From a virus: a DNA stretch of 24,762 nucleotides. The translations under genes and the position numbers were made by a program. The notes below the pieces were generated by a model. That model did no database searches, was not told where the DNA came from, and saw only the letters and a program-made list of their open reading frames with translations. Shown here in pieces: positions 2,882-21,871 of the stretch; position 1 is the first letter of the stretch, and each line of letters starts with the position of its first letter. Location: the IMG/VR virus record IMGVR_UViG_3300045738_001183, positions 1 through 24,762 of that record. The stretch is one strand, 5' to 3'.

Positions 2882-2890
2882 GTATTTAGC
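2882..2890 (-). promoter_or_regulatory. Late-promoter-like motif GCTAAATAC
   Basis: Minus-strand GCTAAATAC (2890-2882) is 3 bases before the ATG at 2878. The same motif occurs before the starts at 8278, 12469 (as ATAAATAC), 21875 and in the leader of 5864. It resembles the T4 late promoter TATAAATA. Confidence 0.5.
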
Positions 2891-2893
2891 TGT

Positions 2894-3142
2894 TTACTTA
2901 CTCTTTGCCTTCCTTCTTGCAGCTTCCATTGCTTCATTTTCACGATTCTTTTGTTTTACGAATCGTTCTATCATCCATTTTCGTTCATTTATCGGCATCT
3001 GGAGGCATCCGGCCCGATTCATGTGGAGATGATATTGGAAGAAGAATATTTCTTCCATCATGTTCTCCCATAAAACAATAGAAGGGTCGCTTGTTAGCTC
3101 GCCTGTTGGGTCGTTTGGGTCTGCTTCCTGAGCCTTGGGAAG
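2894..3142 (-). CDS. gp51/tail-chaperone-like extension reached by -1 frameshift from the gp26-like gene
   Basis: 82 codons in the -1 frame relative to the gp26-like gene, starting at the slippery TTTTTTC (3148-3142) and ending at TAA 2894-2896. The -1 frame is closed by a TGA 9 bases before the slippery site and then open across the upstream gene's own stop (3094-3096), the layout expected of programmed frameshifting. The peptide begins LPKAQEADPNDPTGELTSD and contains MPINERKWMIERFVKQK at 49-65. That (MPI..R.W...R...QK) pattern resembles short gp51-like proteins that follow gp26 in T4-like phages. An internal ATG pair near 3060 with GGGAG before it could start a free 55-residue version, so frameshifting is not proven. 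A single-base error in the T run would give the same picture. Confidence 0.6.
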   Translation of the reverse strand, partial: LPKAQEADPNDPTGELTSDPSIVLWENMMEEIFFFQYHLHMNRAGCLQMPINERKWMIERFVKQKNRENEAMEAARRKAKSK

Positions 3143-4224
3143 AAAAAATTCGCTTCAAGCGGTAGCTCGATCTCGAAATCTTCCATATTGAACGGACTGG
3201 TGATTTCTATAGTAGTGTCTACACCAAATGGCGGGTCGTTTACCACATTTCTCAAGTATGCCACATCGTTGATAGGAAGTTTCTTCAATAGTTCTTGAAT
3301 TTCAAACTGTTGAGTCAGCCCTTCAAGGTCTGTAATCATCAATGATGTACGATAGAGAAGTGTGTCGTCAGCTTGGCCGAGATTGTCGAATCCCTTGTTG
3401 CGTCTTTCCCTATAGTCTTGAACACGTTGTTCGTCAGCGCCAGTTGATAATCTGTATGTAAAATTTAACCCCGTGGTTGGAAGCACATCCTTTAGATTTT
3501 TTTCTGAAAAATCTAAAGGGCACTCGTCAACATACAAATCATTTAAGTTGATAACAGTGGCGAACTTTTTGTCTGTGAATGGGCACTTAATTTCCACATC
3601 GTAATCAGGCGTGTAAGAAATACCTCGAAGGAAAATTAACATGTAAGTTCTATCAGCAGTAAGAAAATTATCACTATCGTAACTGTCCGACATACAACGA
3701 TTGAAAATCATATTAATAGCTTTGCCCTGTTTGACAAATCTAGGCGTTGCTAAAATTTGTTCTTCCTCACCCGTCATCGGTCTAAGTTTGATCTTACCAT
3801 CGGCGGGACCGTTGGTGCCATCATAAAACTTACCCTGCGATGGTAGTGTAATCTCTTCATAAAGAGTGGTGCTACCTTTAACCGCCTGGATAAGCTCTTC
3901 TAGCTTATTACTCCCAGTTACTCGAATATCAGGTTGATCCTGATATCGAGGCCGTGGTCGTGGACCTTTTGCCTGATTCGGGTTCATTTCAACTTCTTCA
4001 GCAGCAGCTTCTTGTCTTACATTTTGTTGTGCTTGTAAGAACTGTTGGGGGACATTGCCCTGAATTTCGACGGCCTTATTTCCAGTTGAGGGGGCGTTCC
4101 CGACATCTGCTGCAACAGCATCACGAACCGCTTGGCCTTGGTCTAATTTACTCTGACCCTGTTCTGCTACAATGTCAGAGGGGTTAACTGGTGTTCTTTC
4201 TTGGCGAAAAACTTCGTCTGCCAT
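3094..4224 (-). CDS. T4 gp26-like baseplate hub protein (T4_baseplate family)
   Basis: 376 aa. Residues 1-105 are polar, Q/A/P-rich and probably disordered. The family part starts near 124 with ITLPSQGKFYDG and KIKLRPMTGEEEQIL (146-158). This matches the LPSxGxxY...RPMTxxEE pattern of T4 gp26-type baseplate proteins. It is followed by a helical NMIFNRCM segment and by YMLIFLRGISYTPDYDVEIKC. T4 gp26 is about 208 aa, so this version is longer, mainly at the N-terminus. In T4, gp26 is needed for hub assembly. The start has GGAG upstream (GAGGAGAAGGAGAAAATTATG). Near its end a slippery TTTTTTC would let ribosomes shift to a gp51-like extension, giving two products from one gene, as with tail assembly chaperones of other phages. 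Confidence 0.75.
   Translation of the reverse strand: MADEVFRQERTPVNPSDIVAEQGQSKLDQGQAVRDAVAADVGNAPSTGNKAVEIQGNVPQQFLQAQQNVRQEAAAEEVEMNPNQAKGPRPRPRYQDQPDIRVTGSNKLEELIQAVKGSTTLYEEITLPSQGKFYDGTNGPADGKIKLRPMTGEEEQILATPRFVKQGKAINMIFNRCMSDSYDSDNFLTADRTYMLIFLRGISYTPDYDVEIKCPFTDKKFATVINLNDLYVDECPLDFSEKNLKDVLPTTGLNFTYRLSTGADEQRVQDYRERRNKGFDNLGQADDTLLYRTSLMITDLEGLTQQFEIQELLKKLPINDVAYLRNVVNDPPFGVDTTIEITSPFNMEDFEIELPLEANFFFPRLRKQTQTTQQAS
3142..3148 (-). other. Candidate -1 ribosomal frameshift slippery heptamer TTTTTTC
   Basis: In the gp26 reading frame the codons are AAT TTT TTC, giving the heptamer T TTT TTC, a canonical X XXY YYZ site. Immediately 3', CTTCC and GGAAG can pair around a 9-base loop. 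GGCTC in that loop could pair with GAGCT about 23 bases downstream, a possible pseudoknot. The stem begins with no spacer, which is unusual, so the structure is tentative. Confidence 0.5.
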
Positions 4225-4278
4225 AATTTTCTCCTTCTCCTCTATAAATTTATTAGAGATATGTTCTTATATCATAGT

Positions 4279-4644
4279 ATGTTAAATCTAAATCTAAACA
4301 ATGTAGAAGAATTAGTGTTTTTTGACAAAACACTGCAAAATCTACTTCCTGAATTTCGTTATTTATTCGATCAGTGGAGACTGGCAAAAATGTCCCCTGC
4401 CTTGCGAACACTTGGGAAACGAACACTAATGGACTTCATGAACGATATAGGCAAAGAACATATTCAAATACTTGAGCATCATTTCAAAACAAAAGTTACT
4501 ATTGATAAGTTGGATTACCATGTAGTTAGGAACTACACTTTTTCTGCGTCTGAATTAGAAGGTGAGCTAAACAAAATTCAGGGTTTCGCTAACTTCTCAA
4601 CGCATAGGGATGGGAATCAAGTTTATCTATCCTTTTGGCGATAA
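4279..4644 (+). CDS. Unidentified 121-aa protein
   Basis: The start is taken as ATG 4279, giving MLNLNLNNVEELVFFDKTL. An ATG at 4261 in the same frame is possible. Neither has a Shine-Dalgarno. An AT-rich stretch with TATAAATT (4243-4250) lies upstream and could be the promoter of a short-leader message. The protein is soluble-looking, helical in its first 70 residues and with a beta-like C-terminus (THRDGNQVYLSFWR). I do not recognise a family. It is the first gene of a rightward cluster and diverges from the gp26-like gene. Confidence 0.6.
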   Translation: MLNLNLNNVEELVFFDKTLQNLLPEFRYLFDQWRLAKMSPALRTLGKRTLMDFMNDIGKEHIQILEHHFKTKVTIDKLDYHVVRNYTFSASELEGELNKIQGFANFSTHRDGNQVYLSFWR

Positions 4645-4697
4645 AATTTGAGGCAGATAATGAAGGTTGGTTACATATAAAAATTTGAGGGTAAAAA

Positions 4698-21000: not shown

Positions 21001-21339
21001 GTGAAGCGACCTAATAAATCAGAACTCATTGATTACATGCATGACATCAAGGGAGCCGCTTTGAGATGGGGTGTGAATGAGCGTACTATTCGAAGATGGC
21101 TAGCGTTAGAAGACCTGTACAATCCTCGTGATGGGTACGGGCCGGGCAAGCTAGATAAAGAAAAAGCCGCCCAAATTAGGCGGCTTTCATCAACGGGATA
21201 CACTCAATCGCAATTGGGCACGATTTTCAACGTCTCGCAGGCGATGGTGGGGCGAGTTGTCAACAATATCGCCCATCCAGTCAATATGCGACTCAAGGGG
21301 ACGGCGGAAGTGAAATATTCTCCCGCACGGCATTACTAA
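21001..21339 (+). CDS. Helix-turn-helix DNA-binding protein
   Basis: 112 aa from a GTG with a strong AAGGAGGTGAGGG upstream. Two HTH segments are visible. Residues about 17-32 (GAALRWGVNERTIRRWLALE) resemble a MerR/resolvase-like recognition helix. Residues about 58-82 (LSSTGYTQSQLGTIFNVSQAMVGRVV) resemble a Hin-like or transposase-type HTH. It has no catalytic domain, so it is probably a regulator. A hairpin that terminates the opposite strand lies inside the coding sequence. It stands alone on the plus strand between minus-strand genes. Confidence 0.7.
   Translation: MKRPNKSELIDYMHDIKGAALRWGVNERTIRRWLALEDLYNPRDGYGPGKLDKEKAAQIRRLSSTGYTQSQLGTIFNVSQAMVGRVVNNIAHPVNMRLKGTAEVKYSPARHY
21158..21187 (-). 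terminator. Minus-strand terminator embedded in the HTH gene
   Basis: The plus-strand AAAGCCGCC/GGCGGCTTT pair (21163-21171 and 21179-21187, 7-base loop) gives on the minus strand a stem followed by TTTTTCTTT. It is placed to end the leftward 69-aa gene transcript (21362-21571) about 175 bases downstream of its stop. The plus strand must encode it in codons KEKAAQIRRLS. Confidence 0.6.
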
Positions 21340-21361
21340 CGGGATTATTGAACGGCGGACT

Positions 21362-21571
21362 TTACCAGCTTCCCTTGAGTATTCGCCATCCAGCCGTGAT
21401 AACAATGCCTGTCACCAAGTTCTTAACAAAGACCTTGGGCTTGAAGAAGTCCCTCAGAGGGTGTTCTCCCACGGCCCATCGCCCATTGCAATCGATCCAA
21501 CTCTGGTTATATCTTTCTGGACCAGTTGGCTGCTGTGGCTGGATGCCTTGTGCAAATTGTGATGATTTCAT
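21362..21571 (-). CDS. Small 69-aa protein, unknown
   Basis: This minus-strand frame is preferred to the overlapping plus-strand one because it has a strong GGGAAGGTAAAAACCATGA start. That start shares the AGGTAAAAACCATGA block with the 20895 gene. The peptide begins MKSSQFAQGIQPQQPTGPER and has one hydrophobic stretch (NLVTGIVITAGW) near the C-terminus. A terminator lies downstream inside the opposite HTH gene. No family is recognised. Confidence 0.55.
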   Translation of the reverse strand: MKSSQFAQGIQPQQPTGPERYNQSWIDCNGRWAVGEHPLRDFFKPKVFVKNLVTGIVITAGWRILKGSW

Positions 21572-21658
21572 GGTTTTTACCTTCCCTTAAGTCTATTTTA
21601 CTACGGTTTGAATGTTTGTAAACCAGATTTATTGAAATTTACCCATTTTATCACGGGA

Positions 21659-21731
21659 TGACCCCAACGGGACTCGAACCCGTGTTACCGGCGTGAAAGG
21701 CCGGTGTCCTAGACCGCTAGACGATGGGGCC
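21659..21731 (-). tRNA. tRNA-Glu (anticodon TTC)
   Basis: On the minus strand a complete cloverleaf is visible. The acceptor stem is GGCCCCA/TGGGGTC with one G-U pair. The anticodon stem CCGGC/GCCGG holds the loop CTTTCAC, whose TTC reads Glu codons GAA and GAG. The T-arm is CGGGTTCGAGTCCCG. The discriminator base is A and the CCA end is not encoded. The sequence is close to bacterial tRNA-Glu, as in many large phages. It lies among small phage genes and no attachment-site repeat is seen beside it in this window. Confidence 0.95.
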
Positions 21732-21856
21732 GCACATCTAGGTACATCCTAACTCATTAAGCTCATTTTGAACATGGTCACGAAACATGCATAAGTCTTC
21801 TGCATCTAATGGTTCATAACTGATTTTGTGTTGTAAATCTTAAAATTGAGTATTCG

Positions 21857-21871
21857 TTGTGCTAAATACAG
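21857..21871 (+). promoter_or_regulatory. Late-promoter-like TTGTGCTAAATACAG
   Basis: This is identical over 15 bases to 5809-5823. TAAATAC (21863-21869) ends 5 bases before the ATG at 21875, and no ribosome site is present. The message would be leaderless or nearly so. Confidence 0.5.

Follow-up and report, generated by a model that had tools for sequence, protein, structure and literature searches.

Candidate T4-late-type promoters at the start codons of huge uncultured phages, with predicted leaderless mRNAs

A seven-base box, (C/A/T)TA(A/T/G)ATA, lies four or five bases before the start codons of several genes in the IMG/VR virus record IMGVR_UViG_3300045738_001183, and we propose that it marks promoters whose transcripts would begin at the start codon itself. 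The stretch analyzed, hereafter the window, is the entire 24,762-base record; wider tests needed relatives. Statistics across these sequences demonstrate the position of the box, a pyrimidine at −1, gene orientation, an A-rich upstream patch, and conservation in orthologs. As far as sequence comparison goes, the window phage has this layout in common with a lineage of huge uncultured phages, whereas four classical T4-like phages (T4, syn9, KVP40, and Aeh1) lack it. We hold it very probable that the boxes are leaderless promoters, and nearly as probable that our best explanation is right as a whole, namely, T4-late/Aeh1-type promoters giving leaderless mRNAs, with a gp55-like sigma factor as the likeliest reader. 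Under this explanation, the box would occupy about −12 to −6 and host RNA polymerase would start on the A of the AUG (an RNA 5′ end that we infer), yielding a leaderless mRNA whose 5′-terminal AUG is presumably translated without a Shine-Dalgarno sequence. The promoter would be bipartite, pairing the box with a patch rich in A and poor in C around positions −30 to −27 and having no −35 hexamer, and would most likely be recognized by the phage's own sigma in a gp55-dependent and perhaps late manner.

Box position at start codons in the window and its relatives

The initial annotation of the window had proposed leaderless late promoters in which the word TAAATAC ends 3, 4, 3, and 5 bases before the ATGs of genes at 2878, 8278, 12469, and 21875. 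That placement is confirmed: TAAATAC-N3-5-ATG occurs four times against 0.22 expected, a number reached in 1 of 2,000 dinucleotide shuffles, and none of the four starts has a Shine-Dalgarno word nearby in its sequence context. The copy number of TAAATAC is ordinary, with seven copies against 4.2 expected (2882-2888(−), 5815-5821(+), 8283-8289(−), 12473-12479(−), 15465-15471(+), 21863-21869(+), and 22681-22687(−); 19 of 100 shuffles reach seven), and the copies at 15465 and 22681, absent from that annotation, are not at gene starts. The word itself was too narrow and was rejected as the general one: CTAWATA or CTADATA takes its place in most relatives, and the box is better written (C/A/T)TA(A/T/G)ATA. 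Three further genes in the window, 19384(−), 19402(+), and 20258(−), have it at their starts. Local context had been read correctly: the 8278 box uses the stop codon of the upstream gene, the 12473-12480 site directly follows a terminator (a minus-strand hairpin and T-run), and a fifth copy in a normal leader shares 15 identical bases with the 21857 site (5809-5823 = 21857-21871). For the 21875 gene, the box does lie near the ATG, but as CTAAATA it has a gap (bases between box and start codon) of 6 and an A at −1, and there is probably a leader of a few bases.

Features of the window:
2144..2878, minus strand: gene with predicted leaderless start, 244 amino acids, no family match
2883..2889, minus strand: CTAAATA box, gap 4 (CAAT) to the ATG of 2144-2878; AAA at −17..−15 before the box; pyrimidine at −1
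5814..5820, plus strand: CTAAATA box in the normal leader of gene 5864-6406, which has a Shine-Dalgarno sequence
7307..8278, minus strand: M14 zinc carboxypeptidase gene with predicted leaderless start (PF00246, 3e-29)
8284..8290, minus strand: CTAAATA box, gap 5 (CTTGC) to ATG 8278; its TAA (8287-8289) also terminates gene 8287-9246
8305..8308, minus strand: TAAA, the A-rich element 15-18 bases before the 8284 box
10298..10861, plus strand: gp55-like sigma factor, region 2 only (phrog_234, 9e-6; sigma-70 region 2)
11705..12469, minus strand: sulfotransferase gene with predicted leaderless start (PF13469, 2e-14, match from residue 3)
12474..12480, minus strand: ATAAATA box, gap 4 (CAAC) to ATG 12469, directly after the terminator
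12482..12508, minus strand: terminator hairpin and T-run upstream of the 12474 box (arms 12488-12494 and 12502-12508; T-run 12482-12487)
19390..19396, minus strand: ATATATA box, gap 5 to ATG 19384, overlapping the plus-strand box
19391..19397, plus strand: ATATATA box, gap 4 to ATG 19402
20264..20270, minus strand: ATAGATA box, gap 5 to ATG 20258 of gene 20004-20258; a terminator-like hairpin with a T-run lies just before the box
21844..21847, plus strand: AATT, the A-rich element before the 21862 box
21862..21868, plus strand: CTAAATA box, gap 6 to ATG 21875, A at −1
21875..22513, plus strand: gene behind the 21862 box, encoding an EQPVESV-type peptide repeat

The window had no DNA-level match in the phage collection (megablast), and relatives were gathered by protein. 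With the gp55-like protein as query, virus contigs yielded 268 related loci, and the 80 best were retained; the metagenomic phage LR756511 (595 kb) was also found, and a tail sheath query added 3 loci. Our main set comprised LR756511 and ten IMG/VR records, 47 to 533 kb long, that have a gp55 or tail-sheath relative. Genes were called mechanically, longest open reading frame first, with candidate starts within the first third of the frame, and 7-mers were tallied at 2 to 6 bases before ATG. One record (G004) entered only the 7-mer and CTAWATA gap counts and was later excluded, as the identity and score of its gp55 match equal those of G005; the two are probably one species.

After Shine-Dalgarno words, the leading start-proximal 7-mers in several genomes were CTAAATA, GCTAAAT, CTAGATA, CTATATA, and TATATAA. 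In the window and ten IMG/VR records, CTAWATA precedes ATG at gap 4 in 17 cases, gap 5 in 41, and gap 6 in 8 (reversed-word control: 2, 1, and 3); one record, G010, alone has 14 at gap 5, and LR756511 has the same distance peak. The sharp genome-wide peak before starts that the initial annotation had predicted is thus present in relatives, and a hold-out set agrees. T4's own box, TATAAATA, is rare at starts in the window and relatives. For the broad box, HTADATA, the reversed-word control is poor since ATAAATA and ATATATA are palindromic by reversal, and the CTAWATA control and the −1 base were used instead. Across the window, nine records, and LR756511, 171 of 3,794 genes have a box at gap 4 or 5 together with a −1 pyrimidine, compared with 16.0 expected from gaps 9 to 20; the count is 0 of 1,069 in T4, syn9, KVP40, and Aeh1. 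The hold-out consisted of 37 of 73 candidate loci, left after removal of 36 near-duplicates of analyzed sequence or of each other. There, 18 of 644 genes have box and pyrimidine (3.7 expected), spread over 15 of the 37 loci, and CTAWATA occurs nine times at gaps 4 and 5, its reversed word never. A TA-like signal in a fixed place about 10 to 12 bp before the start codon is therefore present in window, relatives, and hold-out alike. Start codons behind the box are 70 ATG, 6 GTG, and 1 TTG, compared with 856, 128, and 114 behind a Shine-Dalgarno word.

The box also tends to persist between orthologs. Among 99 ortholog pairs of strict-box genes, the broad box is kept at the start in 40 and the strict box in 13, compared with 264 and 61 of 5,265 for other genes. 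Orthologs of the 19384 gene carry the strict box in G013, the broad box in G005, G019, and LR756511, and none in G020.

Predicted transcription start, upstream patch, and candidate sigma factor

RNA polymerase favors start sites at a purine preceded by a pyrimidine at −1. The T4 late box lies at −13 to −6 (PMC2988020) and the Aeh1 late box CTAAATA begins at −12 (PMC1524935); by this geometry, the predicted +1 of a gene with a gap of 5 is the A of its ATG. A pyrimidine occupies −1 in 68 of 70 strict-box genes, compared with 833 of 1,808 Shine-Dalgarno genes. By gap, the proportions are 74/77 at gap 4 and 97/108 at gap 5, against 5/9, 17/32, and 16/28 at gaps 3, 6, and 8, with gap 7 intermediate (21/28). 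This restriction to gaps 4 and 5 lends independent support to the earlier proposal that transcription begins at or next to the AUG.

The upstream neighbor lies on the opposite strand for 35 of 69 box genes, compared with 500 of 1,752 (P = 2e-4). Boxes are squeezed between a terminator and the ATG at 12469, at its G005 ortholog, and at a pair of G013 genes flanking one hairpin (L177). The G005 ortholog (L125:2932-3723, 65% identity) keeps the terminator-box layout with different sequences for both elements, and the start at 12469 is supported because the sulfotransferase Pfam match begins at residue 3. In the window, the divergent genes 19384(−) and 19402(+) have start codons 17 bp apart and a common ATATATA box; their products are a 182-amino-acid protein without assigned function and a DUF2061 membrane protein. 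Divergent pairs within 60 bases with a box on both sides number 1/2 in the window, 3/32 in G019, 1/13 in G011, 1/15 in G020, and 1/47 in LR756511, and 0/63 in six other relatives and 0/7 in T4, syn9, and KVP40. Similarly tight pairs in G019 are L150:13519-13538 and L155:11414-11430. Elsewhere in G019, at L151:2416-3102(−), a tRNA-like sequence seems to end, in the 3′ direction, almost directly before a CTATATA box and ATG.

Alignment of the 171 box genes revealed an A-rich, C-poor patch 15 to 18 bases before the box. It is found at 82/185 leaderless boxes, 137/433 boxes lying 8 to 60 bases from a start, and 381/2,549 boxes elsewhere (hold-out: 6/18 leaderless, 39/106 leadered, and 126/723 elsewhere) and seldom accompanies leadered boxes in T4, Aeh1, and KVP40 (6/71). 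Within the window, all four patch positions are A or T for boxes 8284, 12474, and 21862 and three are for 2883 and 5814; the position is A-poor at 19390-19397 and 20264. At the 12474 box, the element (12495-12498) is the A/T loop of the terminator hairpin. A −35 hexamer is not clearly enriched: at least 5/6 matches to TTGACA occur in 4%, compared with 2 to 3% in shuffled sequence, and at least 4/6 in 26 to 31%, compared with 22 to 24%.

The gp55-like sigma that the initial annotation placed at 10298 does match the PHROG that contains T4 gp55 (phrog_234; three relatives, 8e-8 to 1e-6; T4 gp55 itself, 3e-69), and direct BLASTP gives an E value of 0.003. These proteins form a tight family, relatives being 61 to 74% identical to the window's, and are of the gp55-family type in having region 2 and no region 4. 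We favor the view, with some reserve, that this sigma reads the box. The only match in the genome collection, a gp55-like gene on the 4.2-kb contig RXKI01000011.1 (L266) in a Neisseriaceae bin, is probably a stray phage contig and a hint too weak for naming a host.

Contrary observations, alternative explanations, and box genes

A number of observations weigh against the promoter reading or parts of it. The box is missing from all 8 orthologs of the 2878 gene and from the 1 ortholog of the 8278 gene, and terminators immediately upstream show no more than mild enrichment (5/70 box genes, compared with 44/1,799). Gene content is mixed. Most of the box genes scanned had no family; among those identified, structural types (terminase in G010, sheath stabilizer in G020, and head-tail adaptor and portal matches) stand beside a homing endonuclease, transposases, IF-3, NUDIX, RNA ligase, and Acb1-like genes. 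One source of these identifications was a PHROG scan, for which alone 70 box genes (the 12469 gene and 69 of a set of 77) were pooled in an alignment; 25 of its 36 matched families were considered. This mixture leaves the "late" label weak and not established, and we lean neither toward nor away from box genes being mainly late. TATAAT forms a smaller peak of its own at gaps 5 and 6 before ATG (31 genes, 23 with a −1 pyrimidine; in the window, 10899-11156 has such a start), a sign that boxes of the gp55 type may not be the only route to leaderless starts; some could depend on a host-type sigma acting via TATAAT. Of the original "leaderless late promoters," then, the leaderless part is supported, while late timing and reading by gp55 stay predictions. 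Finally, T4 gp55 binds the sliding clamp by a hydrophobic-acidic C-terminus (PMC2988020); by inspection, this tail is not in the proteins of the window and 8 relatives, whose C-termini are polar and variable. The gp45-type clamp PF09116 was found in 0/6 relatives and 3/3 control phages and a DnaN-type clamp in 0/6 relatives, searches in which a diverged clamp could be missed; PF02916 was likewise found in 0/6, but was silent in the control too.

Host transcription without gp55 is one alternative: the host's main sigma would read the box as a −10 element, with leaderless starts as in Deinococcus-Thermus and Actinobacteria. A TA-like signal some 10 to 12 bases before the start marks bacterial leaderless genes (PMC12340547 and PMC3160421), and the TATAAT peak in these phages fits as well. 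We consider this explanation unlikely, if well short of negligible, as CTAWATA ends in A and not in the T of TANNNT or TATAAT and equals the Aeh1 late box, there is no clear −35, and a gp55-family sigma is encoded. The box might instead act in translation, as an A/U-rich ribosome or S1 site that replaces the Shine-Dalgarno sequence in mRNA from further upstream; it does sit in the Shine-Dalgarno position, in genes that have none there. We give this little credence in view of the fixed gap of 4 or 5, the −1 pyrimidine chiefly at those gaps, the patch fixed to the box even at boxes 8 to 60 bases from a start, the excess of divergent neighbors, and the boxes wedged between terminator and ATG (12473, L125:2932-3723, and the L177 pair).

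Translational coupling, in which ribosomes that stop at the TAA or TAG of CTAAATA or CTAGATA re-initiate on the gene that follows, seems slightly less credible still. For 12 of 81 genes, 8278 included, a called upstream gene does terminate at the stop codon of the box, but not for the other 69; the upstream gene is on the other strand in about half, and CTATATA, which has no stop codon, behaves alike. As for chance in an AT-rich fragment, the seven TAAATAC copies are within it, but the placement in the window, the ten relatives, and the hold-out refute it, with no such starts in the four classical phages, and we regard it as virtually eliminated. Phage translation factors were rejected as an explanation, bS21 being present in only 3/10 relatives (G011 326-457 and 88286-88447, G005 99710-99826, and LR756511 332226-332384) and IF-3 in only 2/10 (L119:11425-11973(−) of G005 and LR756511 325993-326250(−)). 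The G005 IF-3 gene starts after a CTAAATA box whose stop codon also ends the gene upstream; IF-3 disfavors leaderless mRNA, which makes an IF-3 gene in this position odd.

Other genes deserve mention. The 2′-5′ RNA ligase-like genes whose products match the anti-CBASS Acb1 family are L177:11965-12504(−) in G013 (5.6e-7) and L103:15000-15569(−) in G010 (2e-8). The window encodes T4-type tail genes (tail sheath, tube, sheath stabilizer, and hub) and one tRNA-Glu. Among the tail genes sit a glycosyltransferase with TPR (8287-9246), the sulfotransferase (11705-12469), and the M14 carboxypeptidase (7307-8278), possibly host-surface or virion-glycan genes. The tandem EQPVESV-type repeat of the 21875 protein spans 22080-22190.

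Comparison with known promoters and leaderless genes

The leaderless promoter reading offers a rule for recognizing promoters in huge uncultured phages, for which there is no laboratory system, and it would help correct gene starts that Shine-Dalgarno-based callers would miss. Promoter and start codon would be merged in a regulon of a probably phage-encoded sigma, which predicts Shine-Dalgarno-free translation, and the A-rich −30 element with the missing clamp-binding tail makes it directly testable whether gp55 transcription is always clamp-coupled. It is conceivable, though we would not expect it, that this lineage has remodeled T4-type late transcription, that a clamp-independent gp55-like sigma without a clamp-binding tail reads the A-patch and a CTAWATA fused to the start codon, and that such a leaderless regulon bypasses Shine-Dalgarno selection during takeover. 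Phage mRNAs that start at the AUG occur in lambda cI and in Thermus phages. We know of no precedent for leaderless mRNA as a property of a gp55-type promoter class across a phage lineage. Leaderless gp55-type promoters were not reported in the literature searched (including PMC5312081, PMC9004378, and PMC7824862), a search whose scope left out most subscription journals and preprints.

By our reading, the boxes work like T4 and Aeh1 late promoters, and we do not file them under the gp55/gp33/gp45 system because neither the clamp-binding tail nor the clamp was found. Like T4-type late promoters, including those of Aeh1 (PMC1524935 and PMC2988020), they have the same box, the same distance to the predicted +1, no −35, and an encoded gp55-family sigma. 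In contrast, T4 has 32 copies of TATAAATA, those near starts mostly 10 to 34 bases before them and none at 0 to 9, and in T4, syn9, KVP40, and Aeh1 the box is mostly 10 to 40 bases before the ATG, whereas here the predicted +1 is the A of the ATG. The T4 late system has gp45 and the gp55 clamp-binding tail; here neither was found, and the A-patch at about −30 is added. In the leaderless genes of Deinococcus-Thermus and Actinobacteria (PMC3160421 and PMC12340547), a −10-like box about 10 to 12 bases before the start is followed by no leader and a start at the ATG, as is likewise predicted here. Those genes use TANNNT and the cell's main sigma, whereas the phages have a T4-late-like box and encode a gp55-like sigma. 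Bacterial leaderless genes prefer AUG, and the same preference holds behind the boxes described here.

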